From assembly GCF_000144645.1 (NCBI RefSeq), contig NC_014377.1, positions 434,001-498,000 of the forward strand: DNA of 64,000 bases. The letters are read 5' to 3'. Numbering within the stretch: position 1 is the stretch's first letter; each line of letters starts with the position of its first letter. This DNA comes from Thermosediminibacter oceani DSM 16646 (GTDB taxonomy: Bacteria > Bacillota > Thermosediminibacteria > Thermosediminibacterales > Thermosediminibacteraceae). Below are positions 12,665-50,117 of this stretch, in pieces. The notes under the pieces were generated by a model. It saw only the letters and a list, made by a program, of their open reading frames with translations. It had not been told where the DNA came from and made no database searches. The position numbers and the translations under genes are program-made.

Positions 12665-13951
12665 TTAGTGCACCGGAGTGGAAGCGCCGGTATCGACTTT
12701 TTTGGTGTTCGGTGGCACCGGCCGGGGCAGGCGGAGCAGGACGAGTGCACCGAGCCCGGCAAGAGCAGACATAGCGGCACCGGTGAAAAACACCGGGGAC
12801 CAACCGCTCAACTGGGCTACAAGAGCTGCCACGTAGCTTCCTACGATGCCGCCCACACCTTTGGCGCTGTACATGAAACCGTAGTTGGTTGCAGCGTACT
12901 TGGTGCCGAAGATGTCAGCGTTCACCGCCGGGAAGAGGGCATAGAGTTCACCCCATGTGAACATGATCAGCGCAAAAAGGAAGACAAACATGGCCGGGCT
13001 TTGCCCCAGGAACGGCACCAGCGCCATTGCAACGCCGTTTAAGGTAAAGGCCAGGAACATGGTTTGATAGCGGCCGAGTTTATCGGAGACTGAACCCCAG
13101 AAGATACGTCCGGCTCCATTGGCCACGGTGTTGACGGTGGCGGCTAGGACGATAATCCCCGCGGGGATGCCGGCATCCTGTCCGAAAGGTTTGGTCTGGG
13201 CGGTGACTACCATACCCCCGGTAACGATGAATAGGAACATTATGTAAATTAACCAGAAGTGCAAAGTCCTGAACATCTCCAGGGTCGTAAACTGGTGCTG
13301 TTCCGTGCTCGTATCCGCTTTGGCGCCGCTGGCTGGCTTTTTCGGAGGTACACGCATCAACTGGGCTGCAATAAAGATTAAAATACCCTGAATAATCCCC
13401 GTGGTCACGAACGCTGATGCGTAACCCTGGTTGCGGAGTGCCATGGCGATGAAAGGTATAAAAAGCGCCGCCCCTGAACCGAAGGCTGCCGATACGAGGC
13501 CGGAGGCTAAACCGCGCCGCGAAGGCTCGAACCAGCGCACTCCTGCAGCTACGGCGCCGCTGTAAATGAAAGCCGCTCCGATGCCAGCCAGGCTGTAGGC
13601 CACATACAGTGCAGACAGCGTCTTAACAATGCCCATCGCCGTCCAGCCGATTCCTACCATGAGCGCGGCTATGGTGAGGAGTAAACGGGGACTGTAGCGA
13701 TCGATGAAGTAACCGGCTATGGGCTGCCCCCAGCTTTCAAGGGCGATAAAAAGGGAAAATGCCAGCTGCACAGCCGCGCGGGAGGCGTTAAACCCCTTCT
13801 CCAGCTCGGGAACAAAGAGCGTCCATGCGTACTGCAAATTGGCAATCATGATCATACCGATCATAGCCAGGATAAGCTGCGTCCACGTGTTCCAGATGAA
13901 CGAACCATAAACCCCTTTCCGATCTGAGGTTTGCGGTGTTGACGTAGTCAT
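12665..13951 (-). CDS. OxlT-type oxalate/formate antiporter (MFS)
   Basis: About 428 residues with 12 hydrophobic segments. MFS features include the loop GYFIDRYSPRLLL after segment 2 and GSVSDKLGRYQTM after segment 8, and the family look of oxalate:formate antiporters (GWTAMGIVKTLSALYVAYSL). It lies 170 bp below the oxalate oxidoreductase genes on the same strand, which supports oxalate as substrate, with formate as counter-ion as in Oxalobacter OxlT. ATG 13951 is chosen because GGGAGGTGC lies 5-8 bases before it. Specificity is inferred from context. Confidence 0.82.
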   Translation of the reverse strand: MTTSTPQTSDRKGVYGSFIWNTWTQLILAMIGMIMIANLQYAWTLFVPELEKGFNASRAAVQLAFSLFIALESWGQPIAGYFIDRYSPRLLLTIAALMVGIGWTAMGIVKTLSALYVAYSLAGIGAAFIYSGAVAAGVRWFEPSRRGLASGLVSAAFGSGAALFIPFIAMALRNQGYASAFVTTGIIQGILIFIAAQLMRVPPKKPASGAKADTSTEQHQFTTLEMFRTLHFWLIYIMFLFIVTGGMVVTAQTKPFGQDAGIPAGIIVLAATVNTVANGAGRIFWGSVSDKLGRYQTMFLAFTLNGVAMALVPFLGQSPAMFVFLFALIMFTWGELYALFPAVNADIFGTKYAATNYGFMYSAKGVGGIVGSYVAALVAQLSGWSPVFFTGAAMSALAGLGALVLLRLPRPVPPNTKKVDTGASTPVH

Positions 13952-14052
13952 CAAAAGCACCTCCCTGTTAGTGATTATTAATAATTAATAAAATTATGAA
14001 AATTTTAGCTGGCCTTTTGAAATGATGGACTACCTGGTCCTGACAAGGACAT

Positions 14053-14080
14053 CTGCCCCAGGCTAAAAAGCCTGGGGCAG
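14053..14080. other. Hairpin between oxalate oxidoreductase and the transporter
   Basis: CTGCCCCAGGCT-AAAA-AGCCTGGGGCAG is a perfect 12-bp stem without a T-run on the minus strand. It may stabilise the 3' end of the upstream message or lower expression of the transporter. Confidence 0.55.
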
Positions 14081-14121
14081 GTAGAGAACGGGAACGTGCG
14101 GCGACCTACCGGGATTTACGG

Positions 14122-16282
<2,161 letters not shown>

Positions 16283-16302
16283 ATTCTTCACCTCCAGAAC
16301 CG

Positions 16303-17250
16303 CTAGTCTTCGAAATCTAGCTCCGGCACCTCGGTTATAGCCCCTGTCGGGCAGACAGCAGCACACAGGCCGCAGCCTTTGCAGTATTTCAGGTTAAAGA
16401 GCGGTCCGTCTTCTCCTTTTTTAATGCAGGTATCCGGGCAGTAGATCCAGCAGGTCCAGCACTGGGTACACGCTTCGGTGTTCAGTATCGGCCGCTTCAT
16501 GCGCCAGTTACCGGTTACCATGCCTTCGTTTTCTTCCTGTGGTGAAGGAACGGTGCCGGCAAAAGGCATCTGTTTGAGGAGTTCTTTAGCCGTCGTTTGG
16601 CTTTCCCTTGCAACAGGCCGTACCTCGAGCTTTCTCACCTGAACCTCTTCGTAGCCGCGGCGCATCGCCGCCGGGTTCTTTACTACCTGGGCTAGGTTTT
16701 CTACATCGACAATGCCGGTGACCCGGGCTACGGCTCCGGCAATGGGAGCGGCGATTCCGGCGCCAATACCTGTGGCATCGGTGGCGCCCTCGGATCCGGA
16801 CAGGGTCACGACGGCTTCAGCCATGCTGCTGGCGTCTACAGTTGCTATCTGACCCAGATTCCCTGTATCACCCAGGAACTTCAGGATGCTGTCGATGCTG
16901 CGTTTGGTATTGACAACAAGGGTAGCGCCGGGTTTGATACCCTTAAGCACCGGCACGCCTTTTACAAGAGTTTCCTCCAGGACTACCACAATATCTGGGG
17001 CTTCATTTTCGTACACGTACCTGCTGGCTATAGGGTCACTGCTGATACGTGCGTACGCCCGAACGGGCACGTTGATGCGGTCAGGTAGGTCCACGTAATT
17101 CTCCCAGGCCTGGACGTACTTGCCTTCCTTCGCTGCAGCCTCGGTGAGGGCCACCACGACGTCACGGGCGTCCTTGTTCATGATAACGCCCCTGGACCAG
17201 ACGGTGACCTGTTTTAAATTGGGTTCAAGAAAAAGTTCATTGGAAGACAA
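16303..17250 (-). CDS. Oxalate oxidoreductase gamma-delta subunit (fused)
   Basis: 315 residues. Residues 1-195 match the gamma domain of pyruvate-type oxidoreductases (VTVWSRGVIMNKDARDVVVA). The C-terminus is the delta domain with two [4Fe-4S] motifs: CTQCWTCWIYCPDTC and CKGCGLCAAVCPTG. Fusion of gamma and delta is as described for oxalate oxidoreductase and differs from the separate subunits of many pyruvate enzymes. TTG start at 17250 with GAGGAGGAACGCAAG before it. First gene of the operon; it passes electrons from the TPP centre to ferredoxin. Confidence 0.88.
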   Translation of the reverse strand: MSSNELFLEPNLKQVTVWSRGVIMNKDARDVVVALTEAAAKEGKYVQAWENYVDLPDRINVPVRAYARISSDPIASRYVYENEAPDIVVVLEETLVKGVPVLKGIKPGATLVVNTKRSIDSILKFLGDTGNLGQIATVDASSMAEAVVTLSGSEGATDATGIGAGIAAPIAGAVARVTGIVDVENLAQVVKNPAAMRRGYEEVQVRKLEVRPVARESQTTAKELLKQMPFAGTVPSPQEENEGMVTGNWRMKRPILNTEACTQCWTCWIYCPDTCIKKGEDGPLFNLKYCKGCGLCAAVCPTGAITEVPELDFED

Positions 17251-17421
17251 CTTGCGTTCCTCCTCTCCTCATGGATTTATGCTAAATACGACTGAACCGG
17301 TATAATATTATGTTTTATCAGTCTTTTCTAAAATAAATTTATGATGCAATTATCAAATTTATAACCAGAATTATTTATTTTTGGCATTTGGTTATGCCGT
17401 ATCTTGCTCCGGCCGTTTTGG

Positions 17422-19548
17422 TTACCCTTTTACCGGGATCAAGTCCCGTTTTTTACGCACTTCCTCCAATGCCCGTTCCAGGTGCTGTCTCCGGATGGCT
17501 CCGCTTTCCTTTGACGCATCACTTCGGGATGCAAATTCTGCTGCTGCCATGAAAGCTGCCCGCCGGCAGACTGCTTCGATTTCGGCTCCGGTGAGGCCTT
17601 CCGACTGCAGGGCCAAAAGCTCCAGGTCCACATCCGCAGCCAAGGGCCGGGCGCCCAGGTGGATGCCAAAAATAGCCTGCCGATCAGACTCATCGGGGTA
17701 GGGAAACTCCAGTACCTCGTCGAAACGCCCCGGGCGCAGCAGAGCGGGGTCGATAAGATCAATCCGGTTCGTAGCCCCTATGACCACCACCTCGCGCATT
17801 TCTTCGAGAGCATCGAACTCCAGCAGAAACTGGGACACCAGGCGGCCGGCTGTTTCCTCGCCGCCGCGGCGCACCGGGACGAGGGCGTCCAGTTCATCGA
17901 AAAATAACAGGCACGGCGAAGCTTGGCGAGCCTTGCGAAAAACTTCGTGGAGGATTTTTTCCGCCTGACCCCGCCAGCGGGAAAAGAGGAGGGAACCGTT
18001 TACGGGTATAAAGTTTATGCCGCTTTCTCCGGCCAGGGCCCGCACCATTAAAGTCTTGCCGGTACCCGGGGGGCCGTATAGAAGGATGCCTTTGGGCGGT
18101 CGTAACCCGAACTGTTTGAATAGCTCGGGGTGGGTCAAAGGCCACTGGACCAGTGCCTGCAGGCGCTCTTTAATTGCCGTCATACCTCCTATATCTTCCC
18201 AGCGGGCTGTGGGAAGTTCGGCGGCAAATTCCCGGGTCGCCGAAGGTTCTACTTCGTCCAAGGCACTGATAAAGTCGCGCATGGTCACTTTAAGGTCCAG
18301 TTCGACAGGAGGAGGAAAACCGGGTGGTAAATTTTCCAGCACCCGCTGCAGGGCGTGCATGCCCGCCTCCCTGCACAGAGCGGCCAGGTCTGCACCGACA
18401 AACCCGTGGGTGATGGCAGCCAGGTATTCCAGAGAAACGTCCTCCGCCAGGGCCATACCGCGGGTATGAATCGCCAGGATCTCCTTCCGGCCGCGTTGGT
18501 CGGGCACATCGATAAGGATCTCCCGATCAAACCGGCCGGGACGGCGCAACGCCGGATCGATCAAATCCGGCACATTGGTAGCCGCCAGCACGATGACATT
18601 ACCGCGCGCTTCCAGGCCATCCATCAGTGCCAGAAGCTGGGCAACCACGCGCTTTTCCACATCCCCGTATACTTCGGTGCGCCGGGGAGCTATGGCATCG
18701 ATCTCGTCCAGGAAAATAATGCTGGGCGCCTTTTTCTTCGCTTCATCAAACACCTGGCGCAGGCGCGCTTCGCTCTCCCCGTAGTACTTATGCATTATTT
18801 CTGGACCATTGACCAGTAAAAAGTGGGCTTCCGTCTCGGAAGCTATGGCGCGGGCGATCAGCGTCTTGCCGGTGCCGGGGGGGCCGTACAGTAGAATTCC
18901 CTTGGGAGCCTCGATACCTAGCCGGTTGAAAAGCTGCGGATACTTCAGCGGGAGCTCGACAATCTCGCGAATTTTTTTGACCTCTTTTGCAAGGCCCCCG
19001 ATATCCTCATAGGTTACACCCCCTCTGCTGCTGTCGGTATTATCCGCACCTTTAAAGCGCACGATCGTATCGCGCGTAATAACAACAGCGCCCTGCGGGG
19101 CCGTGCCCTCCACCATGAAAGCTTCATCGCCACCGCTGAACTGTGAAATCGTTATCTGATCGCCTACAATCACGACCCGACCCAGGATGCTTTTTTTGAG
19201 GAAAGCACTCCCCTTCTCCGCACCCTGCCATACCGGCAAAAGAGGTGAAAGGACCACGGCTTTAGCCCGCTCACACTCAATCGGGGTCACTACAACGATT
19301 TCTCCGATACCGGCGGCAGCGTTTTGCCTTACGATCCCGTCCATCTGAATACAGCCGGCGGGGCAACTCTCGGGAAAACCGGGAAGTACCCGGGCAACAG
19401 TGGTGCGCTTTCCCGTTATCGCTACCACATCGTTGGGGTTTAATTCCAGGGCCTTCAAAGCCTCGGCTGGTATCCGAACTATCCCTTTACGTGCGTCCTG
19501 GATTTCCGCCTCACAAACTCTAAACTGGAGGGACTTTTCTGCACTCAT
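17422..19548 (-). CDS. CDC48/VAT-type AAA+ ATPase
   Basis: 708 residues from ATG 19548. N-terminal double-psi barrel (residues 1-110, [20 protein letters not shown]), then two AAA modules. D1 has Walker A GPPGTGKT at 222-229 and Walker [12 protein letters not shown]2 has Walker A GPPGTGKT at 492-499 and [10 protein letters not shown]. The second-region arginines lie in RRPGRFDRE and LRPGRFDEV. This is a protein unfoldase of the archaeal VAT/eukaryotic p97 type, uncommon in bacteria. It is encoded upstream of, and on the same strand as, the oxalate operon, with 171 bp between. GC-rich like those genes, it may have been acquired with them. Confidence 0.9.
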
Positions 19549-19777
19549 TTGCCATATCACCCCATGTGCTATACTATCGGGACTAACTGATCTTACGGTA
19601 AAGTCCGCATCATCGTTCCTCATGATGCGGTACGTTCGAGGTAGTCCTCTTTACATATATGAACGAATTATAGAATTTATGAAAAATATTTATACTGGCG
19701 CAGGCATTCCGGTATGTCATGGTTAGTAAAATATGCTGACAGCCGGCCACAAAAGCCTTATTAAATACCGAAAATTA

Positions 19778-19792
19778 GTTGCAATATGCAAC
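19778..19792. promoter_or_regulatory. Palindromic operator before the MarR gene
   Basis: GTTGCA-ATA-TGCAAC is a perfect 6-3-6 palindrome 36 bp upstream of the regulator's ATG. It sits in the promoter region, where a MarR dimer would repress its own gene. Confidence 0.6.
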
Positions 19793-19828
19793 AATTTCAT
19801 GATACAATTGTAATAGGGAGGTGACCGA

Positions 19829-20269
19829 ATGGAAGATAGGGGCAGCCATTATTTGAGGGAATTGATAAGGATGCTGGTAAGAAACCTGGGCGTGCTGGAA
19901 AAGAGCGAGGCTTCCTGCTGCGGCACAACCCTTTCTCAATGCCATACGATCGTTGAGATAGGGAGGGCGGGGGAAATATCGCTTAACGAACTGGCGGAAT
20001 TGCTCAACCTGGATAACAGTACCATCAGCAGGAGCGTGAACAACCTGGTGAAGCAGGGCCTCGTCGTGAGGGAAACGGACCCGGAGGATAGAAGATACGT
20101 GAGGATAAGACTGACAAAAGAGGGTTACGGCGTCTATGAGGCTGTAGAAAGCAGCATGGAAGCTTATTTTGAAAGGATTTTCACTACCATACCGGAAGAA
20201 AAGCGGGAGCAGGTTCTCGAGAGCCTCCAGATCTTAATAGACGCCGTCCGAAAAAATAAATGCTGTTAA
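19829..20269 (+). CDS. MarR-family regulator with cysteine cluster
   Basis: 146 residues. Winged-helix core with helix-turn-helix LNELAELLNLDNSTISRSVN near residues 54-73 and the wing DPEDRRYVRIRLTKEG. Unusual cysteines occur at 30, 31 and 38 (SCCGTTLSQCH) in the dimer region and two more at the C-terminus (KCC). This suggests sensing of a metal, metalloid or oxidant rather than a phenolic ligand. ATG after GGGAGGTGACCGA. It is monocistronic, ending before a terminator; the target genes are not evident apart from its own palindromic operator. Confidence 0.88.
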   Translation: MEDRGSHYLRELIRMLVRNLGVLEKSEASCCGTTLSQCHTIVEIGRAGEISLNELAELLNLDNSTISRSVNNLVKQGLVVRETDPEDRRYVRIRLTKEGYGVYEAVESSMEAYFERIFTTIPEEKREQVLESLQILIDAVRKNKCC

Positions 20270-20290
20270 AGAAAGGAGAGTATCCCCTAA

Positions 20291-20328
20291 AATTGAGGCC
20301 GGCCTTCCCGGTGCGGAAAGCCGGCCTC
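20291..20328. terminator. Bidirectional terminator marR / activator
   Basis: GAGGCCGGC and GCCGGCCTC flank a 15-base loop between two converging genes. The hairpin overlaps the end of the leftward gene. Confidence 0.6.
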
Positions 20329-21955
20329 ATCCTAATTTACCTTCCAGGGAAATCAGTGCTGCTCCAAGCGCCCCGATGATCTGGGGCTCGGGTGGGATGA
20401 TGAGTTTTTCACCCAGCTTGCTTTCGATGGCATGAACCACTCCCCAATTTTTTGCAACGCCCCCCGTCATCATGTATTTTCCTTTTCTCCCAATTCTTTC
20501 GACCAGGGAAACTGCTTTTGATGCAACGGCTTTGTTGAGGGCGTATATTATATCCCTTTGATCCTTATTTTGAGCAATGAGGGATATTACTTCCGATTCT
20601 GCAAATACGGTGCACATACTGGTGATTGTAATATTTTCTTTTACTTCCTTATGCACTTTTGCCATTTCGTCTATTGGAACACCTAAAGTCCTTGCCATTA
20701 CTTCCAGAAACCGGCCTGTCCCGGCTGAACACTTATCGTTCATTACAAAATCAACGACATTGCCGCTGTCATCGAGCCTTATCACCTTGCTGTCCTGGCC
20801 GCCTATATCTATAACGGTTCTGATCGCGTTGTCTATAAAAAATGCACCTTTGCCGTGACAGGTAATTTCGGTCACGATTCTATCGGCAAAGGGGATGCTT
20901 ACTCTTCCGTATCCCGTCGCAACTATTGATGCGATATCCTTTTTACTTAGCCCTGCGTTGTTTAAAGCTATCTCAAAAGCTTTAGAAGCGCTTTCCACAG
21001 CCCTGGGGCCTGTGGGAATAATGGAATACGATATTATATTTTTATTTTCGTCAATTATGACCGCATTTGTCGAAGTGGAACCGCTGTCGATTCCTGCAAA
21101 ATAGCCTTTTTGGGCTCCTTTTTTTTCAACTTTTTTAATGCCGGTTGATTCTAAAAACGCGTCCACCCTCGTTAAAATCTGCCCGCTGTTGGAATCGGTA
21201 TAGTCGGTTTCAATTTTCAAGAGGGGAATATCTACTTTGTTCTTAAGTTCGGCGTACTCGTAGGAATAAAAATCGCAGAACTTTATGGTGTTGTATATTA
21301 TTCCCTTGAATTCTTTATTGGTAAGCTTACTCCGGTCCTCTGCCATTCTCATGCATGGTGTTAAATCGAGCAGCGATTCTGCGTAGCCTTTTAATAAATT
21401 ATCTTTTGCTTCAATATTAAACATTCTTTCTTCACCCGTACACGTATAATTTATTATATTTGCTTTAGAGGAATTTTTAATTTTTTCCACGACATCATCT
21501 TTCAGCCTCGCGCCTAATATGGCGATACTTTCGGAGGGTTGCTTTTTCTTTGAAGAAGATTTGCCTTCTAAAATTTTCAATAAGTTTTCTTCAACAAAAG
21601 TCCTGTTTTTAAATTCTTTATACACATCGATAAATTTAGTTATTTCATTATAAAAAAGATCCACTGCAAGAGAGTCTTTTTTCCTCGGCAGGTCCAGCAT
21701 ATAAATAAATTTTACTCTATCTTTTAATACGTCGTAAAGCCTCCGCATGCTGTCACAGCAGCTGGTTAATACGACCTCTTCGATATTATTTTCAATAATA
21801 TTTTCCAGCACTCCCTTTGCGAAACTGCAAATATTCGAATGAATAAGGGCTTCAGCGCGTTCATAAGACTTGCACGCTGAATCAAGCCTCACCGGTTCTT
21901 CTCCAAGGGCTTCGATTATTTCTACGGGTGTGTATTTACAAACGTATCCTATCAA
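20327..21955 (-). CDS. Fused dehydratase-like domain and ATP-dependent activator
   Basis: 542 residues from the TTG at 21955, chosen because GGGGGGT lies just before it and because this removes an overlap with the upstream gene. The N-terminal 280 residues resemble a shortened HgdB/2-hydroxyacyl-CoA dehydratase subunit (TSCCDSMRRLYDVL). The C-terminal 260 are an ASKHA-fold activator of the HgdC/BcrAD type: GIDSGSTSTNAVI, GGQDSKVI, and the cluster cysteines in NDKCSAGTGRF and SMCTVFAESEV that bridge the dimer [4Fe-4S] cluster. It would use ATP to drive a low-potential electron into the partner encoded just upstream. The substrate is unknown. Confidence 0.83.
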   Translation of the reverse strand: MIGYVCKYTPVEIIEALGEEPVRLDSACKSYERAEALIHSNICSFAKGVLENIIENNIEEVVLTSCCDSMRRLYDVLKDRVKFIYMLDLPRKKDSLAVDLFYNEITKFIDVYKEFKNRTFVEENLLKILEGKSSSKKKQPSESIAILGARLKDDVVEKIKNSSKANIINYTCTGEERMFNIEAKDNLLKGYAESLLDLTPCMRMAEDRSKLTNKEFKGIIYNTIKFCDFYSYEYAELKNKVDIPLLKIETDYTDSNSGQILTRVDAFLESTGIKKVEKKGAQKGYFAGIDSGSTSTNAVIIDENKNIISYSIIPTGPRAVESASKAFEIALNNAGLSKKDIASIVATGYGRVSIPFADRIVTEITCHGKGAFFIDNAIRTVIDIGGQDSKVIRLDDSGNVVDFVMNDKCSAGTGRFLEVMARTLGVPIDEMAKVHKEVKENITITSMCTVFAESEVISLIAQNKDQRDIIYALNKAVASKAVSLVERIGRKGKYMMTGGVAKNWGVVHAIESKLGEKLIIPPEPQIIGALGAALISLEGKLG

Positions 21956-21980
21956 TCTTCGACCCCCCTGAAGAGCTTTA

Positions 21981-23240
21981 CTAAAGCATTTCGAGAAAAG
22001 CCTCAAGCCTCGTCCTGTTCTGCCCTTCCTGATTATTCCTTTTATCTACACAGTCGCCATCTAGGTAAAGGAACGGGATACCCATTTCCGAGGCAAGATT
22101 TTTAATTATAAATGTTCCGCCTATGGACTGTTTGCAGCCCAGGTGGCAGAACTGTATGATGCCGTCGGGTTTTGTCTTTTCTATCAGTTCCCTGATTCTC
22201 GTCACTTTTCGATTTATTTCGCCGTTAAAAGAGGTTAAAACAAGCTTTTCGGCGATTCCCCTGAATGGTTCATTTTCGTCGATTTCGCCCAGAAAATCGT
22301 AGTTTATATCGCTTCCGGCAATGTGAAACTTGTCGCTGAAATTAAAGTAGTCTTTGAAATTTTTCTCAAACATGGGAAGGAGGTGGACGAAAAATATACT
22401 TTTTCCCCTTCTTTCGGGAGCTTTTTTTATGTCGTCGATGAGCATTTCGTAAAAATTTAACATCTCCCTGCTTCCGATGAATACGTGGGATGCAAATAGC
22501 ATGTACATCTCAAAGGTCATGGTAGTTAAAAGAGCTTTTTCTGCCGCATAATTTAAATACTCGTTCATGAGTGCTCTCGTCTTATTTTCTGTTTTTACGA
22601 CTTCCCTCAGTTTGTCAATATCGAGCCTTCTTTTATATGCTTCTTCAAGCCTTTTTACCATTTCTACAAGCTGGTTTTCCACATAAGCTACGGCTTCTTT
22701 AGAATACCTGTAGGGAATATCGATGATGTAAAGGGGAACACCGGTTTTTCTTGAAAGATACCTGAAGGTGGGTATATTTGCATCGCAGATCATGGAAGTA
22801 GTGATCATAAATCCGGGTTTTTTAAGAATGTTAAGCTCATTTGCCCCTATGAAAGTTTTATGGTAGCTGCATAAAGTATTTGATATACCCCTTGATTCGG
22901 CGGTATCGATAAGGTAATCTTCAATAAAAAAACCCGACATAAAAGAAGAATATGCTTCAACGAATAAGGGCCTTATATCCATGGCTATTAAAAATTCGCA
23001 GGGGGAAAAAAGGTTTACCCATGCGGAATTTTGAGGATTTTCCAGTGAATCTTTTATATTTTTTATGCAGCATTTATTCAGGTATTGCAGGGATTTGGGG
23101 AGCCTTTTATCTTTGAAAAAGCTCACGTAATAATAAGCAACGGTAAGGCCGAAATTTATCAGTTTATTTACTTTTTCGGATTTTTTCATGTTTCTTTTTA
23201 TAATATTGCTGTACATCCTTACCGGATCCATTTTTGTCAC
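21981..23240 (-). CDS. 2-hydroxyacyl-CoA dehydratase-family / double-cubane protein-like
   Basis: 419 residues. HgdB-type fold with conserved cysteine motifs FSPCEFLIAMDI, NTLCSYHKTFIG and a C-terminal CHLGCKQSIGG. The last motif and the pairing with a single activator recall the double-cubane cluster protein of Carboxydothermus rather than the two-subunit dehydratases. No CoA-transferase, thiolase or second dehydratase subunit lies nearby, which also argues against amino acid fermentation. A GTG at 23240 and an ATG at 23231 both follow a GGGG tract; the start is uncertain. The next gene begins 25 bp downstream. Confidence 0.75.
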   Translation of the reverse strand: MTKMDPVRMYSNIIKRNMKKSEKVNKLINFGLTVAYYYVSFFKDKRLPKSLQYLNKCCIKNIKDSLENPQNSAWVNLFSPCEFLIAMDIRPLFVEAYSSFMSGFFIEDYLIDTAESRGISNTLCSYHKTFIGANELNILKKPGFMITTSMICDANIPTFRYLSRKTGVPLYIIDIPYRYSKEAVAYVENQLVEMVKRLEEAYKRRLDIDKLREVVKTENKTRALMNEYLNYAAEKALLTTMTFEMYMLFASHVFIGSREMLNFYEMLIDDIKKAPERRGKSIFFVHLLPMFEKNFKDYFNFSDKFHIAGSDINYDFLGEIDENEPFRGIAEKLVLTSFNGEINRKVTRIRELIEKTKPDGIIQFCHLGCKQSIGGTFIIKNLASEMGIPFLYLDGDCVDKRNNQEGQNRTRLEAFLEML

Positions 23241-23397
23241 AACCCCTTACCCCCCTTCCCGTCAAGAAGACTTCCTTTTGGTATATTATTCCTTACCGGT
23301 ATTGTATCAGAATGACGGATAACAAGCAATGCCTGGATTTCATCCCCCTCCCTTTCGGAAGGGATAAAGCCGGGCAGTTAATGTAATATAAAGAATG

Positions 23398-23423
23398 AAA
23401 GCCGTGCTCTAAAGCACGGCTTT
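23398..23423. terminator. Bidirectional terminator
   Basis: AAAGCCGTGCTCTAAAGCACGGCTTT, a perfect GCCGTGCT/AGCACGGC stem with A and T runs on both sides. It follows the glycine-rich small gene on the minus strand. Confidence 0.85.
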
Positions 23424-23427
23424 CAGT

Positions 23428-23547
23428 TTAAAAATTGTCGCCCAGTAAGAGAAGGATCAGGATAAGGAATACGAGGAAAGCCTGGCGATCCTTGAAGAAA
23501 CCTCCTCCGAAGCCTCCTCCGAAGCCTCCGCCGCCGACTTCAGCCAT
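23428..23547 (-). CDS. Glycine-rich single-span small protein (YjcZ-like, 39 aa)
   Basis: ATG at 23547 follows AAGGAGGGG. The peptide has a glycine/phenylalanine-rich N-terminus (GGGGFGGGFGGGFF) and then one hydrophobic segment (FLVFLILILLLLG). This is the pattern of small YjcZ-type proteins of spore formers, some of which are spore-associated. It is followed directly by a terminator, so it is a single-gene unit. Confidence 0.65.
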   Translation of the reverse strand: MAEVGGGGFGGGFGGGFFKDRQAFLVFLILILLLLGDNF

Positions 23548-23764
23548 TTTAAAAACCCCTCCTTATTATGGTGTCTATTACAATATATGCTTATGGTTTT
23601 TTAGAGGTTACAATCTGCTTTTGGGAAAAACAGCCAAAGGGGCTGGAGGCTTTAATTCCGAGGGCTGTACGGTATAATTAAAATATACGAAGTTTATCTG
23701 GGAGGTAATTGAGATAGAAAGAAGGGATCTTATTTATAAGATCAAGCGGTACGGTTATTTATTA

Positions 23765-24964
23765 TTGCCGGTGGTTTTTTTCGCAGAAATATATTTTTAT
23801 CCCTTTGAAGGTAAATTTAAGTTTTCCGCAGGAGTTATTATATTAAACCTTATCATCCTTGCTGTCGATAATGTATCGAAATTTTGGATTGTAATTTTGA
23901 GCGGATTGGCGATATTTGCGGTAAGAACCGCGGTATTATTTTTTCAAGGGATAAGTTTTGACACGGCGTTAGCTGTTAATTACCCGTCATTAGTTTATTA
24001 TGTGATATTTGCCTTTCTGGTAAAAATATCAGATGTTGATAAACGAAAGAACTATGTATTTGGAGCTATAATGCTGCTTTCTTTAGTGGATTTTTCCAGT
24101 AATTTATTTGAAGCAGCTATCAGGAACGAGATAAGTCCATCGGGCGTACAGCTGATCTTGATGGTAGGTTTTTTGAGAAGCATTTTGGCCTATTTCATAT
24201 ACCAGCTTTATGAAAGACAAAAACTTTTTATTTTGAGCTCCGAACACCAAAAAAGATATACCCAGCTTAATATGTTGATTTCAAATATACAGGCCGAAAT
24301 GTTTTATCTGAAAAAATCTATGAAGGATATAGAAAATGTGATGAGAAAAAGCTATAGCCTTTACGAAAGTAATGAATTGGATGGAAAATTGAAAGAGATG
24401 GCTTTAGACATTGCAAAGGATGTTCATGAAATTAAAAAGGATTATTATAGAGTCGTGCTGGGCTTCGAATCCTTCATAAAGGGCTTAGAGAATGAGGATG
24501 TTATGAAGCTCTCCGATATTTTTACTATAATTAGGGACAATATAGAAAGGTACCTCAAAGCAAAAAATAAGGAGATAAAAATCTTTTTCAATTGTGGAAG
24601 CGATTTTTCAGTAGGGCCGTATTATAATATGTTTAATTTATTAAATAATTTGTTAACAAACAGTATTGACGCCTGTAAAAGCGGTGACACAATTGCCGTT
24701 TCGGTAACGAATTTGGAAGAGAACGTATGCTTAGAGGTTAGGGACAGTGGCGAGGGAATTGAAGAAGATATACTTCCTTATATCTTCAATCCCGGTTTTA
24801 CAACTAAATATGATGAAGATACGGGCAGGCCTCATACGGGCATTGGACTTTGCCATGTGAAAAATATCGTAGAAGAGCTGGGTGGAAGCATTGAGGTAAC
24901 CTCAAAACCGGGAGTAGGTACAAAATTTAAGATACTAATTCCCAAAAAAAGCTTGGTAAGGTGA
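23765..24964 (+). CDS. Membrane sensor histidine kinase, GlnK-like
   Basis: About 400 residues from the TTG at 23765. N-terminal half: several membrane segments. A dimerisation helix with KDVHEIKKDYY carries the likely phospho-accepting His, and the ATPase domain has the N box NLLTNSIDAC, G1 DSGEGIEE, and G2 TGIGLCHVKNI. It is followed after 4 bp by a response regulator with a GlnL-type domain and then gltS. The pair therefore resembles GlnK-GlnL (YcbA-YcbB) of Bacillus subtilis, which responds to glutamine. The start is a puzzle: in-frame codons continue upstream to a good GGGAGG at 23700-23705, but only ATT or ATA codons are available there. Confidence 0.85.
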   Translation: MPVVFFAEIYFYPFEGKFKFSAGVIILNLIILAVDNVSKFWIVILSGLAIFAVRTAVLFFQGISFDTALAVNYPSLVYYVIFAFLVKISDVDKRKNYVFGAIMLLSLVDFSSNLFEAAIRNEISPSGVQLILMVGFLRSILAYFIYQLYERQKLFILSSEHQKRYTQLNMLISNIQAEMFYLKKSMKDIENVMRKSYSLYESNELDGKLKEMALDIAKDVHEIKKDYYRVVLGFESFIKGLENEDVMKLSDIFTIIRDNIERYLKAKNKEIKIFFNCGSDFSVGPYYNMFNLLNNLLTNSIDACKSGDTIAVSVTNLEENVCLEVRDSGEGIEEDILPYIFNPGFTTKYDEDTGRPHTGIGLCHVKNIVEELGGSIEVTSKPGVGTKFKILIPKKSLVR

Positions 24965-24968
24965 TCTT

Positions 24969-25856
24969 ATGGATAAAACATTTATGATTATTGATGATGA
25001 CGTTAATGTAAGAAAAATGTTAGCTATACTTATAAGAAAAAATAGACTGGGCAAAGTGCTGACAGAGCTGGATAGCGGAAAGCATGCCGCTCAGGAAATA
25101 CTTTTTTTTAACCCCGATATTGTGCTTATAGATCTGCTGCTGCCGGCCATGGACGGTATTGAAGTTATAAATGAAGCCAGGTCAAAGGGTTACAAAGGCA
25201 AATTTATAATGATATCCCAGGTGGAAGATGAAAACATGGTGGCAAAGGCTTATGAAAGCGGTATATTATTTTTCATAAATAAACCCATAAACAACATAGA
25301 AGTGGTAAGTGTCATCAAAGGCGTTTGCCGCATTATCGATCTTGAGAACTCCTTGGCATTGATTAAAAATACCGTTATGAACTATGATGCAGAAAACCAC
25401 AAGATTAAAGATACAAACGATAAAAACATTGAGACGAGAATAAATAAAATATTTAGCGATCTGGGAATTATAGGTGTTGCCGGCAGCAACGAGTTATTGA
25501 AAGTCATATACACGGTGCATGAGCTAAAGCTGGAAAATCCCAATGCCGAATATCAACTCCAGGATATATATGAAAAAGTTCTGGAGGAAGATGATGATAA
25601 TATAGAAAAACTTAATGTAAAGTCATTAGAGCAAAGAGTCAGAAGGACAATTCAAAAAGCCCTTCAGACGTTGGCTGAACTGGGTTTAAGTGATTTTGAC
25701 AATGACATTTTTTTGGAATACAGCACGCTCCTTTTTGATTTTAAACAGGTAAGGCAGCAGATGCGGCATATAGAGAACCCGAAGGAAGAGCCCGGCAAGA
25801 TAAACATCAAAAAGTTTATAGAGGGAATAATTGCTAAATTGAGATATTCGCAATAA
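24969..25856 (+). CDS. Response regulator with YcbB/GlnL domain
   Basis: 295 residues. Receiver domain 1-120 with acidic pair DDD at 9-11, phosphorylation site Asp55 in IDLLLPAMDG, Ser/Thr site MISQ and Lys in INKPI. The C-terminal half (about 160-290) resembles the YcbB domain of GlnL: SNELLKVIYTVHELKL, then SLEQRVRRTIQKALQTLAEL, a helical DNA-binding region. It should bind phosphorylated upstream of gltS, 143 bp downstream. ATG after AAGGTGATCTT. Confidence 0.88.
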   Translation: MDKTFMIIDDDVNVRKMLAILIRKNRLGKVLTELDSGKHAAQEILFFNPDIVLIDLLLPAMDGIEVINEARSKGYKGKFIMISQVEDENMVAKAYESGILFFINKPINNIEVVSVIKGVCRIIDLENSLALIKNTVMNYDAENHKIKDTNDKNIETRINKIFSDLGIIGVAGSNELLKVIYTVHELKLENPNAEYQLQDIYEKVLEEDDDNIEKLNVKSLEQRVRRTIQKALQTLAELGLSDFDNDIFLEYSTLLFDFKQVRQQMRHIENPKEEPGKINIKKFIEGIIAKLRYSQ

Positions 25857-25924
25857 TTGATTCAATAATTTTTTTTTATTATTTATACTCAAATTCTATT
25901 CAATATTTAGTGTAGGATGGCGTA

Positions 25925-25965
25925 TTCTGATGTAGGCCGCCAGTATAATATACTTGTATAACATT
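25925..25965 (+). promoter_or_regulatory. Promoter region of gltS with imperfect palindrome
   Basis: TATAAT at about 25946 has no good -35. Instead TGGCG (25918) and CGCCA (25938) form an imperfect inverted repeat where a -35 box would lie. An activator such as the adjacent GlnL-like regulator may be needed here. Inference only. Confidence 0.35.
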
Positions 25966-25999
25966 ATACTTAAAATCTAAAAGTGATGGGGGTTTTACA

Positions 26000-27205
26000 A
26001 TGACCGTACAACTTGATATGCTCCAAACTACGGCGCTGGCGGTTATAGTATTATTCCTCGGCGAACTTATAAGAAACAAAGCGCCAATCCTAAAAAAATA
26101 TTGTATACCTTCACCAGTAATCGGAGGATTATTTTTTGCAGTTTTATTCCTAGTTCTAAAGCAGTACAATATTTTGACGATCACTTTTGATACGACCCTG
26201 CAAACTTTCTTTATGAACATGTTTTTCACCACAGTAGGATTCACAGCAAGTTTAAGGCTTCTTAAGAAGAGCGGTATACCGGTACTAGTCTTTTTGACAA
26301 TATCCATTGTACTTATATTCCTGCAAAATGGTCTGGGAATAGCCCTTGCAAAAGTATTTAATTTAAACGGTTTATTGGGCCTTGCGACGGGTTCCATACC
26401 TTTGGTCGGCGGCATCGGTACCTCCGGGGCCTTCGGACCACTTCTTGAAAAAGCGGGTGCAGAGGGAGCCACAACTGTCGCCGTCGCTGCAGCTACTTTT
26501 GGAATGATTATGGGCAGCATTATCGGTAATCCGTTAGCCAAGAATTTAATTGAAAAACATGGCCTTATGAAGAACCACAAAACAGCAGCTTTTGAACCCG
26601 GATTATCCGCAGAGCTGGCTGTATCGGATGAAGTAGGGGAAGTAAAAGCTGAAAACTTTTATCCGGCATTCGCTCAAATACTCCTGGCTATGGGTATCGG
26701 CACTATTATTTCAAGCTTTTTTACAAAAGTGGGATTCACTTTTCCACCGTATATCGGCGCCATGTTCGCAGCAGCCATAATCAGGAACCTGGCGGACTTT
26801 ACGGGAATGTACAAAGTACCCGAGGATGAAATTAAAGTTGTCGGGGATATATCGCTGTCAATATACCTTGCCATAGCCCTGATGGGATTAAAACTCTGGC
26901 AGTTGGCAGACCTAGCATTACCGCTTGTAGTAATGCTGGTGGCACAGACCATATTGATGATGTTGATGGCGTATTTTATAACTTTCAACCTCATGGGACG
27001 CGATTACGAGGCTGCGGTATTGACTTCTGGATTCTGCGGCTTCGGCATGGGCGCGACATCCAACGCAATGGCCAATATGAGAGCACTGGTAGAACAATAT
27101 GCGCCTGCGCCAAGAGCGTTCTTCATAGTTCCTCTGGTTGGAAGCTTGTTTATTGACTTCTTCAATGGAATATTAATCGTAGTCTTTATGAATATGATTA
27201 AATAA
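26000..27205 (+). CDS. gltS: Sodium/glutamate symporter
   Basis: 401 residues, about ten membrane segments in two repeats, with the glycine-rich loops GSIPLVGGIGTSGAFGPLLE (about 135-154) and GFCGFGMGATSNAMANM (about 348-364) typical of the GltS family. It imports glutamate with Na+. Placement behind a GlnK-GlnL-like system suggests control by glutamine or glutamate. ATG after GATGGGGGTTTTACA. It is followed by a terminator shared with the converging gene. Confidence 0.92.
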   Translation: MTVQLDMLQTTALAVIVLFLGELIRNKAPILKKYCIPSPVIGGLFFAVLFLVLKQYNILTITFDTTLQTFFMNMFFTTVGFTASLRLLKKSGIPVLVFLTISIVLIFLQNGLGIALAKVFNLNGLLGLATGSIPLVGGIGTSGAFGPLLEKAGAEGATTVAVAAATFGMIMGSIIGNPLAKNLIEKHGLMKNHKTAAFEPGLSAELAVSDEVGEVKAENFYPAFAQILLAMGIGTIISSFFTKVGFTFPPYIGAMFAAAIIRNLADFTGMYKVPEDEIKVVGDISLSIYLAIALMGLKLWQLADLALPLVVMLVAQTILMMLMAYFITFNLMGRDYEAAVLTSGFCGFGMGATSNAMANMRALVEQYAPAPRAFFIVPLVGSLFIDFFNGILIVVFMNMIK

Positions 27206-27211
27206 ATAGTA

Positions 27212-27249
27212 TAAAAAAAGTCCGGGTTATTATTCCCGGACTTTTTTAT
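27212..27249. terminator. Bidirectional terminator gltS / kinase fusion
   Basis: AAAAAAAGTCCGGG-TTATTATT-CCCGGACTTTTTT: stem GTCCGGG/CCCGGAC with A and T runs on both sides, between converging genes. Confidence 0.88.
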
Positions 27250-28754
27250 ATAATCCCCGCGAACAGGGCGCTGGAAAGGCCGATGCTGAGGAAGTTGACC
27301 AGGTCGTTGTTTACAAAACCCAATCCCCGGACGAGTCGGTTTGGCTTGCCGTTGGTGAACCTTTTTTCGGTTTCGCCTTCCAGTTCTTCCGAATAGTATA
27401 CGCCCTGAAGGGTTGCTCCGAGGATCGAATCGATCAGCGACCCCAGGAATCCCCCGAGGGTCACCATTAGGAGGCTCTGAACGGGGGTAAAGGCCAGGTC
27501 CCCGAAATCCATCAATTTAAACCCCGCGGCGGCGGATATGCCTATGAGCAGAGCGCCCATTAATGCGGCCAAAGTCCCCGAAAGGCTCACTGCCCCGGAA
27601 GTGCCCTTTTCCACCCTCCTGAAGGTCCTGAGCGAAATGGGCCGGGCCTTGCTCAGTATCCCGAGTTCCGTGGCCCAGGTATCGGCGTTGGCGGCCGCAA
27701 AGGATACGGCCAGCAGCACCAGATACGATGGATTTTTCGTAATGTAATAGAGGACCGAATACAAAAGCCCCACGCCACCGTTGGCCAGCACCTGGAAAAC
27801 GTCCCTGCATCCGGTTTTGTCGAAACTTTGCGTCGCGCGGCTCTTTGCGCTCTTTTTAAAATAGGAAAGCAGGCTGGAGGATATGAAAAAGAGCACCATC
27901 AAAAAGGAACCGAAGATCCCCGACGTAGCGTACATCATGGTGCCAAGGATCGTGGCGCCTACGGAACCGTCAAGGGTGAGAGAATTCTTTCGATAGGCGG
28001 CGTATGCTATGAAGAAACTGAGCACAAAACCTATCCCGGCCATGTAAATGAAAAGGAACAGGTTCGAATTTTTGAGTATATAGAGGAAATAATTGGACGC
28101 CAGGGAGGTTACAACCGGGACGGTAAGGTTGTCCGTGCCGGAGGGCGACAGGGCTTCCGAAATTGTTGCAATGAGCGCTGCCACAAAGCTTACCCTGAGG
28201 ACGTGCGGGGTAAATCCCAGGAAACTTCCCAGGGCGACTGCAATAGCTATAAAAGAAAAAGCGAGCATCGTAACAGAACCTTCAAGGCTCTTTTCGCTTT
28301 TGAAGGCCCTGTACTTCGATTTTCCGAATTTCCAGCCTACAATAGCCGCGAGCCCGTCGCCGTATCCCATGGCCAGGACTCCGGCAAGGCCGAGATACTC
28401 AAAACCCCTTCCCAAAAGCCCTCCGTCCCATGTCAGAAGGATAAGGACTATCAGCGATACGGGGAAATACACCGTCCCCAGGTCGGAGCTCGCCCCTTTC
28501 CTTTCCATGCCTTTGAATACATTTTTCTTGTGTGAATAATAATTTACCGCCACGAATAAAGCAGGGGGTATGAGGGCGTACCTTATGTCGTCGATGAGGA
28601 ACATGGCCAAAGGCCACCAGTGGGAAACCCCGATATGTACAAATTTCCTGGTAACTTCGGCGCTTGATCCTCCGGCTTTTCTCAAAACTTCCGAGATTAT
28701 TATTACGCCGAAGACGAACAGGATGGAAATGACAACTCCTATAAAATCTTTCAA
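27246..28754 (-). CDS. Fusion of polyprenol/phytol kinase-like and DUF92 domains
   Basis: 502 residues, entirely membrane. Residues 1-215 resemble CTP-dependent dolichol/phytol kinases (VTE5/SEC59 type): TRKFVHIGVSHWW, GYGDGLAAIVGWKFGK and KSLEGSVTM. Residues 225-502 are a DUF92 domain (VTE6/TMEM19 type): LTLDGSVGATILGTMMY, AANADTWATELG, GTSGAVSLSGT and LIDSILGATLQ. In plants VTE5 makes phytyl phosphate and VTE6 the diphosphate; a fusion could do both steps on a salvaged isoprenoid alcohol. TTG start with AGGAGG eight bases before. Substrate not known. Confidence 0.82.
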   Translation of the reverse strand: MKDFIGVVISILFVFGVIIISEVLRKAGGSSAEVTRKFVHIGVSHWWPLAMFLIDDIRYALIPPALFVAVNYYSHKKNVFKGMERKGASSDLGTVYFPVSLIVLILLTWDGGLLGRGFEYLGLAGVLAMGYGDGLAAIVGWKFGKSKYRAFKSEKSLEGSVTMLAFSFIAIAVALGSFLGFTPHVLRVSFVAALIATISEALSPSGTDNLTVPVVTSLASNYFLYILKNSNLFLFIYMAGIGFVLSFFIAYAAYRKNSLTLDGSVGATILGTMMYATSGIFGSFLMVLFFISSSLLSYFKKSAKSRATQSFDKTGCRDVFQVLANGGVGLLYSVLYYITKNPSYLVLLAVSFAAANADTWATELGILSKARPISLRTFRRVEKGTSGAVSLSGTLAALMGALLIGISAAAGFKLMDFGDLAFTPVQSLLMVTLGGFLGSLIDSILGATLQGVYYSEELEGETEKRFTNGKPNRLVRGLGFVNNDLVNFLSIGLSSALFAGII

Positions 28755-48802: not shown

Positions 48803-50117
48803 CGAAAATACAGGAAGACCTAGTATTGACCCGGTAGTGTTAATTAAGCTACTCATGCTCCAAGCATTGTATGGAATCCGCTCCATGCGCCAAACCATCA
48901 GAGAAGTAGAAGTCAATGTAGCTTACCGTTGGTTTTTAGGCTATGGATTACAAGAAAAAATACCTCACTTTTCAACTTTTGGAAAAAACTATGAACGGCG
49001 GTTTAAGGAAAGTGATCTATTTGAAAAGATATTCGAGCGGGTGTTGATGGAAGCAATAGAATGCGGGTTTGTTAAAACAGATGCAGTATTTATCGATGCT
49101 ACTCACATAAAAGCCAGTGCCAATAAGAATAAATATATCGAGAAAGTCGCTAAGCAACGGACTCAAAAATATAAGGAAGAACTTTTAAAAGAAATCAACG
49201 CCGAACGGGAAGCAAACGGTAAAAAGCCCTTTGAAGAAGAAGATGATGATGACGATAACAACAAAGGAGAAAATAGCTCTAAAAAAGTCAGGGTAAGCAC
49301 CACAGATCCTGAAAGTGGGATGTTTCAAAAAGGGGAAAAAGAGCGCTGCTTTGCCTACACAGCTTCTGTAGCCTGTGACCGGAACAACTTTGTCCTTGGT
49401 GTCAAAATAGCACCTGGAAATGTTCATGACAGCCAGGTATTCTCCGATTTATTTCAAGAAGTAAACGATAAATTTTCTAAAATAGAGGCGGTAGTGGTTG
49501 ATGCAGGCTACAAAACCCCCGGGATATGCAGAGAAATCATTGAGGCAGGAGCGCTTCCCGTTATGCCCTACAAGAGGCCGATGACCAAAGATGGTTACTT
49601 TAAAAAACGCGAATACGTCTATGACGAATATTATGATTGTTACATATGCCCCAACAACCAAATATTAGAATACAGCACCACCAACCGGGCGGGATACCGG
49701 GAATATAGGAGCAACCCCCAAATATGCTGTAAATGTCCCATGCGCCTACAGTGCACCAAAAGTAAAAATTACACAAAAATCATAACTCGGCATATATGGG
49801 AGCATTACATAGAAATAGCGGAAGATATAAGACACACCCAATGGGGTAAAGAACTATACAAAATGCGCGGCCAGACCATCGAGCGGGTATTTGCCGATGC
49901 GAAGGAAAAGCATGGCATGCGCTATACAAATCTACGAGGCTTGAGGAAAGTTGGACATTACCTCACGCTTCTTTTCGCATGCATGAATTTAAAAAAGCTG
50001 GCTTTATGGAAGAAAAGACGGGGAACGTTTCCGCCAACAGTCCCCGCTTTACATTCGTTTTTCTTAAAAATTTTCTTCGCCTTCAACAAAAAGCCGCTTT
50101 TAGGTTATGCATCCTAA
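48803..50117 (+). pseudogene. IS1182-type transposase, 3' part
   Basis: 438 codons continuing the frame of 46173-46318. Contains the DDE_Tnp_1-type core: VFIDATHIKASANKNKYIEK, a highly acidic insert EEEDDDDDNNKGENSS, RCFAYTASVACDRNNFVLGV, AVVVDAGYKTPGICREI, and CPMRLQCTKSK zinc-finger-like cysteines, with a final ERVFADAKEKHGMRYTNLRG. No stop or frameshift in the reconstructed gene (about 486 residues), so the break by IS21 is recent and the only visible lesion. Confidence 0.9.

Follow-up and report, generated by a model that had tools for sequence, protein, structure and literature searches.

Class I benzoyl-CoA reductase BzdNO, which works with the activator BzdPQ (PDB 8s02; PMC11971306), is an archerase-driven heterodimer. 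One of its subunits, BzdO, has three cysteines and a glutamate at a single [4Fe-4S]-OH2 cluster, and the other, BzdN, has six cysteines that hold an [8Fe-9S] double cubane. The roles of BzdO Cys95, Cys128, Cys380 and Glu65 are described in section 8 of the same paper. In the double-cubane cluster protein (DCCP), two identical subunits each carry a double cubane (PMC11971306); the DCCP/DCCP-R system of Carboxydothermus (PDB 6eno, 7yyl) and YjiM/YjiL belong to this group. In the 2-hydroxyisocaproyl-CoA dehydratase HadBC, which is activated by HadI (PDB 3o3m, 4eht), the HadC-type beta subunit lacks the double-cubane cysteines and holds a [4Fe-5S] cluster. The archerase itself has two cluster cysteines per monomer (PMC11574389).

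Here we analyse a gene pair of the thermophilic anaerobe Thermosediminibacter oceani DSM 16646, located in a stretch of 64,000 nucleotides (contig NC_014377.1, positions 434,001 to 498,000), hereafter called the window. The pair follows the same heterodimer logic as BzdNO. However, its archerase is fused to the predicted double-cubane subunit, and there is one activator type instead of two. Literature searches found no description of such a beta-archerase fusion.

Results

The segment 20327-23240 of the minus strand consists of two tightly coupled genes, which encode an alpha subunit and a beta-archerase fusion (Table 1). In Pfam, alpha matches HGD-D (PF06050) with 232.3 bits over residues 77-419 (gathering score 28.4), and the fused open reading frame matches HGD-D with 136.8 bits and BcrAD_BadFG with 218.5 bits, exceeding the curated cut-offs. 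The reading frames and their domains thus bear out the original prediction of a two-gene system in which an activator is fused to a shortened dehydratase-like domain. The inner TTG codon is the most likely start of the fused protein; it has a purine-rich stretch upstream and is preferred because the relatives start there.

Table 1. Features of the gene pair in window coordinates; residues of the fused protein are numbered from the start of the listed reading frame
Feature	Position	Strand	Comment
Alpha ORF, HGD-D catalytic-type subunit	21981..23240	-	419 aa, GTG start
E95 of alpha	22956-22958	-	
C124 of alpha	22869-22871	-	predicted single [4Fe-4S] ligand
C152 of alpha	22785-22787	-	predicted single [4Fe-4S] ligand
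C369 of alpha	22134-22136	-	predicted single [4Fe-4S] ligand
QFCHLGCKQ motif, alpha residues 363-371	22128..22154	-	includes C369, predicted third cluster ligand
Fused ORF as listed	20327..22006	-	559 aa, TTG start
Fused beta-archerase, likely form	20327..21955	-	542 aa from TTG 21955
Beta domain, residues 18-290	21137..21955	-	HGD-D
TSCC motif, residues 81-84 (LTSCCDS, 80-86)	21755..21766	-	C84 predicted as cluster ligand
Archerase (ASKHA ATPase) domain, residues 302-559	20330..21103	-	
C426 of archerase domain	20729-20731	-	presumed cluster cysteine
C465 of archerase domain	20612-20614	-	presumed cluster cysteine

The order alpha, then beta-activator was found in the window and in 18/18 loci of a first set, and again in the window and in 28/28 loci of a second set that overlaps with the first; the fused gene is broken in some of these loci. 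This recurrence led us to reject a chance or misassembled pair. The gap between the two genes is -10 to +35 nt at all 29 loci, and the identity to the window alpha falls to 30%. Of 398 sampled genomes of the phylum, 28 have both alpha and the fused beta; alpha without the fused beta was seen once, where a contig ends. All fused betas fall into a single clade (support 100/100). Both the clade and the co-occurrence are partly given by construction, as the profiles came from this same family and the cut-offs (E 1e-40 and 1e-90) were self-chosen. A broken fused gene occurs in at least five loci (L026, L033, L035, L038, L094), so either some lineages can do without the system or the assemblies contain errors. 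One locus (L040) has a longer linker. An Acetoanaerobium match to the fused protein (30% over 96%) turned out to span two neighbouring genes, the first for a DCCP and the second for an activase, and is not a distant fusion.

For comparison, 15 pairs of unfused betas and alphas were picked by hand; an N-terminal fragment among them (L134) was excluded from the tree and kept in the cysteine count with gaps. The unfused betas nearest the fused clade, by a weak tree link (77/97), sit in three-gene sets of other genomes of the phylum, ordered beta-alpha-activator (L131, L133, L136, L138) or activator-beta-alpha (L135). These sets contain the same three parts, and their betas also begin near the first cysteine. 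They differ in having separate genes in another order and a longer helical region in beta, and they are far more divergent. It is likely that such sets were the evolutionary starting point of the fusion.

Conserved cysteines were counted in 27 alphas and 25 betas. Two near-duplicates of other rows (L076, L077) were removed from the 29 loci for both counts, and the betas of L093, at a contig end, and L094, interrupted by a transposon, were removed as well; loci of the first set absent from the second (such as L026, L038, L039, L040) were excluded. Alpha C124, C152, C369 and E95 align with BzdO C95, C128, C380 and E65 and are kept in 27/27 alphas. None of the three distal ligand columns of DCCP holds a cysteine in any of the 27. 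The original prediction had taken the protein with the CHLGCKQ motif for a double-cubane protein; we ruled out that alpha is a DCCP, as it has the classical catalytic cysteine set instead. The same prediction had named classical dehydratase cysteines and linkage to fermentation as contrary evidence: such cysteines were found, in alpha only, and linkage to fermentation was not seen. C365 of the motif is a cysteine in 24/27 relatives. The position of the catalytic His131 of BzdO is occupied by an asparagine (Asn155) in 27/27 alphas.

The predicted model of alpha (pLDDT 94.0) keeps the N-terminal helices and the four-helix intermediate region. Its best fold match is HadB (Z 38.4), followed by BzdO (35.4), MbdO (34.3), HadC (32.0) and DCCP (29.8), and HadB is also the closest by profile (1.3e-22). 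All 27 alphas match the HadB, double-cubane and BzdO models alike, with best E-values of 5.7e-26, 4.8e-25 and 6.2e-19. The scores of alpha lie below the cut-offs of HadB (85.6 bits, NF052455 cut-off 750), of the double-cubane equivalog (76.6 bits, NF040772 cut-off 350) and of class I benzoyl-CoA reductase (49.8 bits; TIGR03190 453.8, TIGR03191 448.6). Neither alpha nor the fused protein reaches an NCBIfam equivalog cut-off for the HGD-D families. A nitrogenase-like assignment of alpha (NifEN, DPOR) was set aside as weak (Foldseek E 0.0039 and worse, Z < 6).

The beta domain has six cysteines of the double-cubane type (C23, C60, C84, C189, C218, C244), which align with those of DCCP and with BzdN C36, C73, C100, C263, C293 and C327. 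The pattern is present in 25/25 fused betas and in 22/22 DCCPs, sampled as one locus per genome from 28 matches over the cut-off. Thus the proposed kinship to double-cubane proteins holds, with its signature in the fused N-terminal domain. Controls were typed by family score, independently of their cysteines. L129 exceeds TIGR03190, the BzdN model, and TIGR03191 alike (525.4 and 518 bits; cut-offs 453.8 and 448.6) and has the six cysteines; the two controls with HadC as their best family, L130 and L132 (517 and 438 bits; cut-off 700 not reached), miss two of them. C83 of the TSCC motif is an extra cysteine of the fused family only (25/25), and the SACKS cysteine (residue 45) was dropped as a distal ligand since it varies among relatives.

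The fused protein scored 110.5 bits with the double-cubane model (NF040772, cut-off 350), 46.4 with HadC (NF052456, cut-off 700) and 44.6 in the benzoyl-CoA reductase test, below both cut-offs. The best sequence match of beta among solved structures is DCCP (4.6e-24). Its fold scores are tied: BzdN Z 23.5, DCCP 23.0 and HadC 22.9. Because the fold cannot separate beta from HadC, our assignment of beta as the predicted holder of an [8Fe-9S] double cubane is based on its sequence and cysteine pattern. Beta has no N-terminal helix, and its helical intermediate region is about 50 residues shorter than that of alpha. In the window member, positive residues around the distal cubane are lost: E, L and Y stand at the positions of BzdN Arg267, Arg290 and His330. 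DCCP is likewise poorer in positive residues there (PMC11971306, the BzdNO paper).

The activase domain of the fused protein passed the TIGR00241 domain cut-off (280.7 bits over residues 304-552; cut-off 125.4). C426 and C465, presumably the two archerase cluster cysteines, are present in 25/25 fused proteins. The domain model matches HgdC (1hux) with Z 36.3.

The gene neighbourhood was then compared, with neighbour families clustered by blastp at 1e-8; few neighbours were typed and several contigs are short. As predicted, no acyl-CoA genes adjoin the pair among the window genes typed on either side (12668-28754). Aromatic-degradation genes were found neither among the typed window neighbours nor among ten flanking genes typed elsewhere, and no neighbour typed at the 29 loci names a substrate. 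The most shared family, MarR, occurs at 5/29 loci, and none exceeds this number; for this reason, we rejected the idea that the pair functions in one operon together with the adjacent oxalate or MarR genes. Upstream of the pair, the window contains a glutamate symporter and a two-component system, and the glutamate genes (families F5-F7) are shared by the window, L030 and L044 only among the 29 loci. The genome gave no match to a type III CoA-transferase and one to type I, barely over the cut-off (23.5 against 23). It also encodes a canonical DCCP at 1710151, and no activase domain lies near that gene. An activase gene accompanies DCCP at 16/22 loci, within the fetched ~1.5 kb on either side. 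Of the 28 pair-bearing genomes, 20 lack a DCCP above the family cut-off; one of these 20 (G352) has a 258-bit fragment.

Discussion

We consider it rather probable that the pair is an ATP-driven reductase of very low potential, which resembles the catalytically active half of a class I benzoyl-CoA reductase together with its activator, compressed into two polypeptides. Two beta-archerase chains would dimerize via their ASKHA domains, with one [4Fe-4S] cluster between them. Powered by ATP hydrolysis, electrons would enter the [8Fe-9S] double cubane in the tethered beta domain, which may store two or more of them before they move on to alpha and its single [4Fe-4S]-OH2/OH cluster. There, E95 and the neighbouring H127 and N155 could support proton-coupled reduction of the alpha-bound substrate, perhaps a CoA thioester. 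The covalent tether would take the place of free activator docking, and beta would act as a non-catalytic relay that has shed dispensable helical parts. The pair differs from BzdNO in beta, where the N-terminal helix and a portion of the helical region are missing, in the replacement of the catalytic histidine, in the absence of aromatic-degradation genes among the typed window neighbours and in fold-alignment identity, which is 17% with BzdO and 23% with BzdN.

Dehydratase chemistry is possible because alpha is closest to HadB, a dehydratase subunit. The pair would then serve amino-acid fermentation as an ordinary 2-hydroxyacyl-CoA dehydratase, with a HadB-like alpha, a HadC-like beta and an activator fused by happenstance; electrons would be catalytic and the reaction redox-neutral. 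Alpha shares the fold and the three cluster cysteines of HadB, the HadBC system also has an archerase domain in its activator, and 27/27 alphas match the HadB model, although the models of the double-cubane protein and of BzdO are matched just as often. The upstream glutamate symporter and two-component system fit this reading, as does the name (R)-2-hydroxyglutaryl-CoA dehydratase given to an activator-plus-dehydratase pair of Thermoanaerobacterales in PMC8760340, possibly another pair. However, betas that are best matched by HadC miss two of the six cysteines kept in every fused beta, the fused protein scores higher with the double-cubane model than with HadC, and alpha is far from the HadB cut-off. 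Unlike in HadBC/HadI, the activator is fused, and no CoA-transferase link is seen beyond the single marginal type I match. Two relatives share the glutamate genes, and no neighbour family is common to more than 5/29 loci. Altogether, we regard a fermentative dehydratase as unlikely.

It is still less likely, in our opinion, that reduction takes place at the beta double cubane itself, as in a reductase that resembles DCCP and acts on small molecules of the acetylene, azide or hydrazine type, with alpha as a supporting subunit. All 27 alphas share the catalytic cysteines and glutamate with BzdO/HadB, and alpha retains its helical region, features that a bystander would not need; the fused betas form a clade separate from DCCP. 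In DCCP the activase is a separate protein, whereas here the six-cysteine pattern is limited to beta, a distinct predicted single-cubane alpha is added, and the pair stays below the NF040772 cut-off. The full DCCP cysteine pattern, DCCP as the best solved-structure match of beta and the loss of positive residues around the distal cubane speak for this reading. Finally, the pair could inject electrons into, or repair, another protein; for example, the beta-archerase could also serve the solitary DCCP of this genome, or alpha-beta could handle sulfur like TudS. The lack of an activase domain near that DCCP and the frequent pairing of other DCCPs with an activase gene are consistent with such a module. 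We find it very improbable, as most pair-bearing genomes have no DCCP over the cut-off and alpha stands beside beta in 28/28.

Returning to the very-low-potential reductase, a more tentative proposal, to which we give clearly less weight, is that the pair represents a distinct class: an archerase wired covalently to a double-cubane store, a single-cubane catalytic subunit and a substrate new to the superfamily, possibly not a CoA ester. If so, electrons would be injected without docking and release of a free activator, unlike in the known archerase systems and the nitrogenase Fe protein. The natural fusion of the motor and the double cubane fixes the ratio and position of both parts. Therefore, it is a practical object for studying how ATP drives very low potentials and whether the activator needs to dock and be released. 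The pair also marks an unassigned anaerobic reaction in 28 of the 398 genomes sampled from the phylum.

Structure and Distribution of the Gene Pair

The window (G000:C1:434001-498000) lies on a single 2.28 Mb contig. It carries a gene for a catalytic-type HGD-D subunit (alpha, 419 aa) and a gene in which a shortened HGD-D domain (beta) and an activator (archerase) form one chain, numbered here on the listed 559-aa frame. Since the fused proteins of relatives start at the equivalent of residue 18 and a purine-rich stretch precedes a TTG codon, the fused protein probably starts at this TTG and is 542 aa long. The closest relative among the titled genomes is Thermosediminibacter litoriperuensis, with 88% identity in alpha.

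Features of the gene pair and its surroundings (window positions unless another record is named)
Feature	Position	Strand	Description
Alpha gene	21981-23240	-	HGD-D at residues 77-419, 232.3 bits (cut-off 28.4)
Fused beta-archerase gene	20327-22006	-	HGD-D in two stretches, first ~290 residues; BcrAD_BadFG ATPase at 305-552
Probable TTG start	21955	-	Fused protein of 542 aa
Residue 83 codon	21758-21760	-	Cys
Likely oxalate-use cluster	12665-19623	-	Oxalate oxidoreductase delta, alpha, beta and oxalate/formate antiporter (over NCBIfam cut-offs); bacterial CDC48-family AAA ATPase; adjoins the pair
MarR-type regulator	19829-20269	+	Carries two CC pairs; faces the pair in convergent orientation
Unlisted 39-aa ORF	23428-23547	-	Glycine-rich hydrophobic peptide
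Regulatory and transport genes	23765-27205	+	Upstream of the pair; histidine kinase, response regulator with YcbB domain, gltS sodium/glutamate symporter
Transposase	48837-50117		426 aa
Canonical DCCP (L001, L097)	G000:C1:1710151-1711242		Beside a transposase; activase gene absent nearby
Interrupted fused gene (genome G223)	L094:9230-12016		DDE transposase ORF within the beta part

We searched 398 genomes of the phylum with profiles made from members of the alpha and fused-beta families at cut-offs of our own choice, and distant or unfused relatives fall outside these counts. Alpha was found in 29 genomes (E ≤ 1e-90). Of these, 28 also have the fused beta domain (E ≤ 1e-40), which was found in no other genome. 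In the 29th, G057, the contig ends inside alpha, at the flank where one would expect beta. Sixteen loci, Thermoanaerobacter and Caldanaerobacter among them, came from the titled genome collection. Alpha is directly upstream of beta in the window and 18 loci, and again in the window and 28 loci of a wider set that partly overlaps the first. In the wider set, both genes are on the same strand with a gap of -10 to +35 nt (29/29), and no further neighbour family occurs in more than five of the 29 loci, some of which are contigs of a few kb only. By these data, the two genes behave as a unit complete in itself. The pair also seems independent of the canonical double-cubane cluster protein (DCCP), because 20 of the 28 pair-bearing genomes lack a DCCP over the cut-off.

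Several features of individual loci were also recorded. The transposase insertion at L094 is a natural knock-out, and L026, set against its close relative L042, has a fused gene that is broken in two near the linker. L030 and L038 likewise have CDC48 and oxidoreductase families next to the pair, and the kinase, regulator and gltS genes are common to the window, L030 and L044. Homologues of the MarR-type regulator lie close to the pair at five of the 29 loci (the window is one of them), and the regulator is possibly a redox sensor. By eye, the 39-aa ORF has a good ribosome site before it and a hairpin-like stretch after it. The transposase in the window is nearly identical to the one beside the DCCP of the same genome. 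A 2.63 Mb circular record, L141 (NZ_CP154629.1), is filed as an Acetoanaerobium noterae plasmid and is chromosome-sized.

The Beta Domain Carries Double-Cubane-Type Cysteines

Seven cysteines (C23, C60, C83, C84, C189, C218, C244) are invariant in 25/25 fused betas. Six of them align with cysteines of the DCCPs (22/22 loci above the curated cut-off) as well as with C36, C73, C100, C263, C293 and C327 of BzdN, a class I benzoyl-CoA reductase subunit. The sections of PMC11971306 used here give six cysteines for BzdN without individual positions. Our residue count agrees with the paper, in that its Arg53, Ser239, Arg267, Arg290, Gln324 and His330 all land on those letters. The aligned cysteines are presumably the BzdN cluster ligands. 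Control betas were typed by family model, independently of cysteines. The beta of L129, over the BzdN cut-off, has all six; those of L130 and L132, which score best with HadC (below its cut-off), show Pro and Ala in two of these columns, where solved HadC also has no Cys.

Residue 83, adjoining the predicted ligand C84, is Cys in every fused beta, Thr in 22/22 DCCPs and never Cys in the 15 unfused betas. C83 is a hallmark of the fused family. Around the distal sub-cluster, the positive residues of BzdN are mostly lost in the window beta (Arg267 to Glu193, Arg290 to Leu215, His330 to Tyr247). Among the 25 fused betas, the Arg53 place holds Arg or Lys in 16 and the Arg267 place holds Arg in nine. 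By the reasoning in PMC11971306, fewer positive residues would lower the distal potential.

The predicted beta model (mean pLDDT 85.6) begins at its own first strand. From where its first intermediate helix starts to the next strand it has 48 residues, versus 99 in the alpha model. Beta is therefore predicted to lack the N-terminal helix, and its helical region to be about 50 residues shorter. Its fold is equally similar to BzdN (Z 23.5), DCCP (23.0) and HadC (22.9). By NCBIfam profile, the fused protein is nearest to DCCP (110.5 bits versus 46.4 for HadC and 44.6 for BzdN).

Alpha and the Archerase Domain

In BzdO, Cys95, Cys128 and Cys380 bind the catalytic [4Fe-4S]-OH2 cluster and Glu65 is catalytic, according to PMC11971306. 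In the alignment that gives the residue numbers, C124, C152, C369 and E95 of alpha correspond to these residues, and all four are present in 27/27 alphas. The DCCP distal ligand columns hold Asn76 (N/S/T), Asn313 (N/V/A/T/Y) and a gap, with no Cys at any of them in the 27 alphas. By our count from the P-x-E motif, the Asn76 column is the place of BzdO Trp46, which helps to occupy the space of the lost sub-cluster (PMC11971306). The BzdO His131 position is Asn155 in 27/27 alphas, and His127 is likewise invariant. C365, the first Cys of the CHLGCKQ motif, is kept in 24/27 and lies outside the DCCP cysteine positions. In the AlphaFold2 model of alpha (pLDDT 94.0, pTM 0.92), three helices are N-terminal and four intermediate. 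The CoA channel of BzdO involves its N-terminal helix and intermediate domain (PMC11971306). The best fold match of the alpha model is HadB (Z 38.4, rmsd 2.5 over 367), followed by BzdO (35.4), HadC (32.0) and DCCP (29.8).

Residues 302-555 of the fused protein match MbdQ, HadI, HgdC and DCCP-R in a PDB search (1.4e-69 to 8.9e-53). The archerase domain exceeds the TIGR00241 cut-off, its model matches HgdC with Z 36.3, and C426 and C465 are invariant (25/25). The tether is usually short, because 16-28 residues lie between the HGD-D end and the ATPase glycine motif in 24 of 25 fused members. It has 73 residues in the remaining one and is also longer in L040, outside this set.

Possible Mechanism and Substrate

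We infer the cluster identity, stoichiometry and chemistry of the pair as follows. The archerase would act as a dimer in which ATP gates electron injection, an [8Fe-9S] cluster in beta would be the electron store, and a [4Fe-4S]-OH2 cluster in alpha would be the active site. Injection is modelled on the archerases reviewed in PMC11574389 and the relay on BzdNO (PMC11971306). The alpha fold and helical region favour a CoA ester as, perhaps, the substrate. Known dehydratase routes are disfavoured, since the T. oceani genome has no type III CoA-transferase match and a single type I match barely above the cut-off, and no pathway linked to the pair was seen. PMC8760340 names an activator and a dehydratase component in Thermoanaerobacterales as (R)-2-hydroxyglutaryl-CoA dehydratase, perhaps the same pair.

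Evolutionary Origin

A tree was built from 61 rows, namely 25 fused betas, 22 DCCPs and 14 unfused betas picked for comparison. In it, the fused betas are monophyletic and the DCCPs form one group, each with 100/100 support. Five unfused betas join the fused group on a weakly supported branch (77/97). These five are all in three-gene sets with alpha and a separate activase; the order is beta-alpha-activase in L131, L133, L136 and L138 and activase-beta-alpha in L135. The HadC-type L132 has alpha-beta-activase. Six double-cubane-type cysteines are present in the betas of L131, L133, L135, L136, L138 and L139, and three in the fragment at L134. The L131, L133 and L138 betas, below every NCBIfam cut-off, represent a wider group. 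Sets ordered beta-alpha-activase were also seen at L134 and L139. The most economical origin is fusion of adjoining beta and activase genes within an alpha-beta-activase operon, with beta trimmed afterwards.

Activase domains fused to other HGD-D-like domains occur in long proteins. We found no description of the beta-archerase fusion in the open-licence literature searched. The parts and the relay logic are known; what is new is the architecture, with the motor and the double-cubane relay in one chain and the relay domain trimmed.
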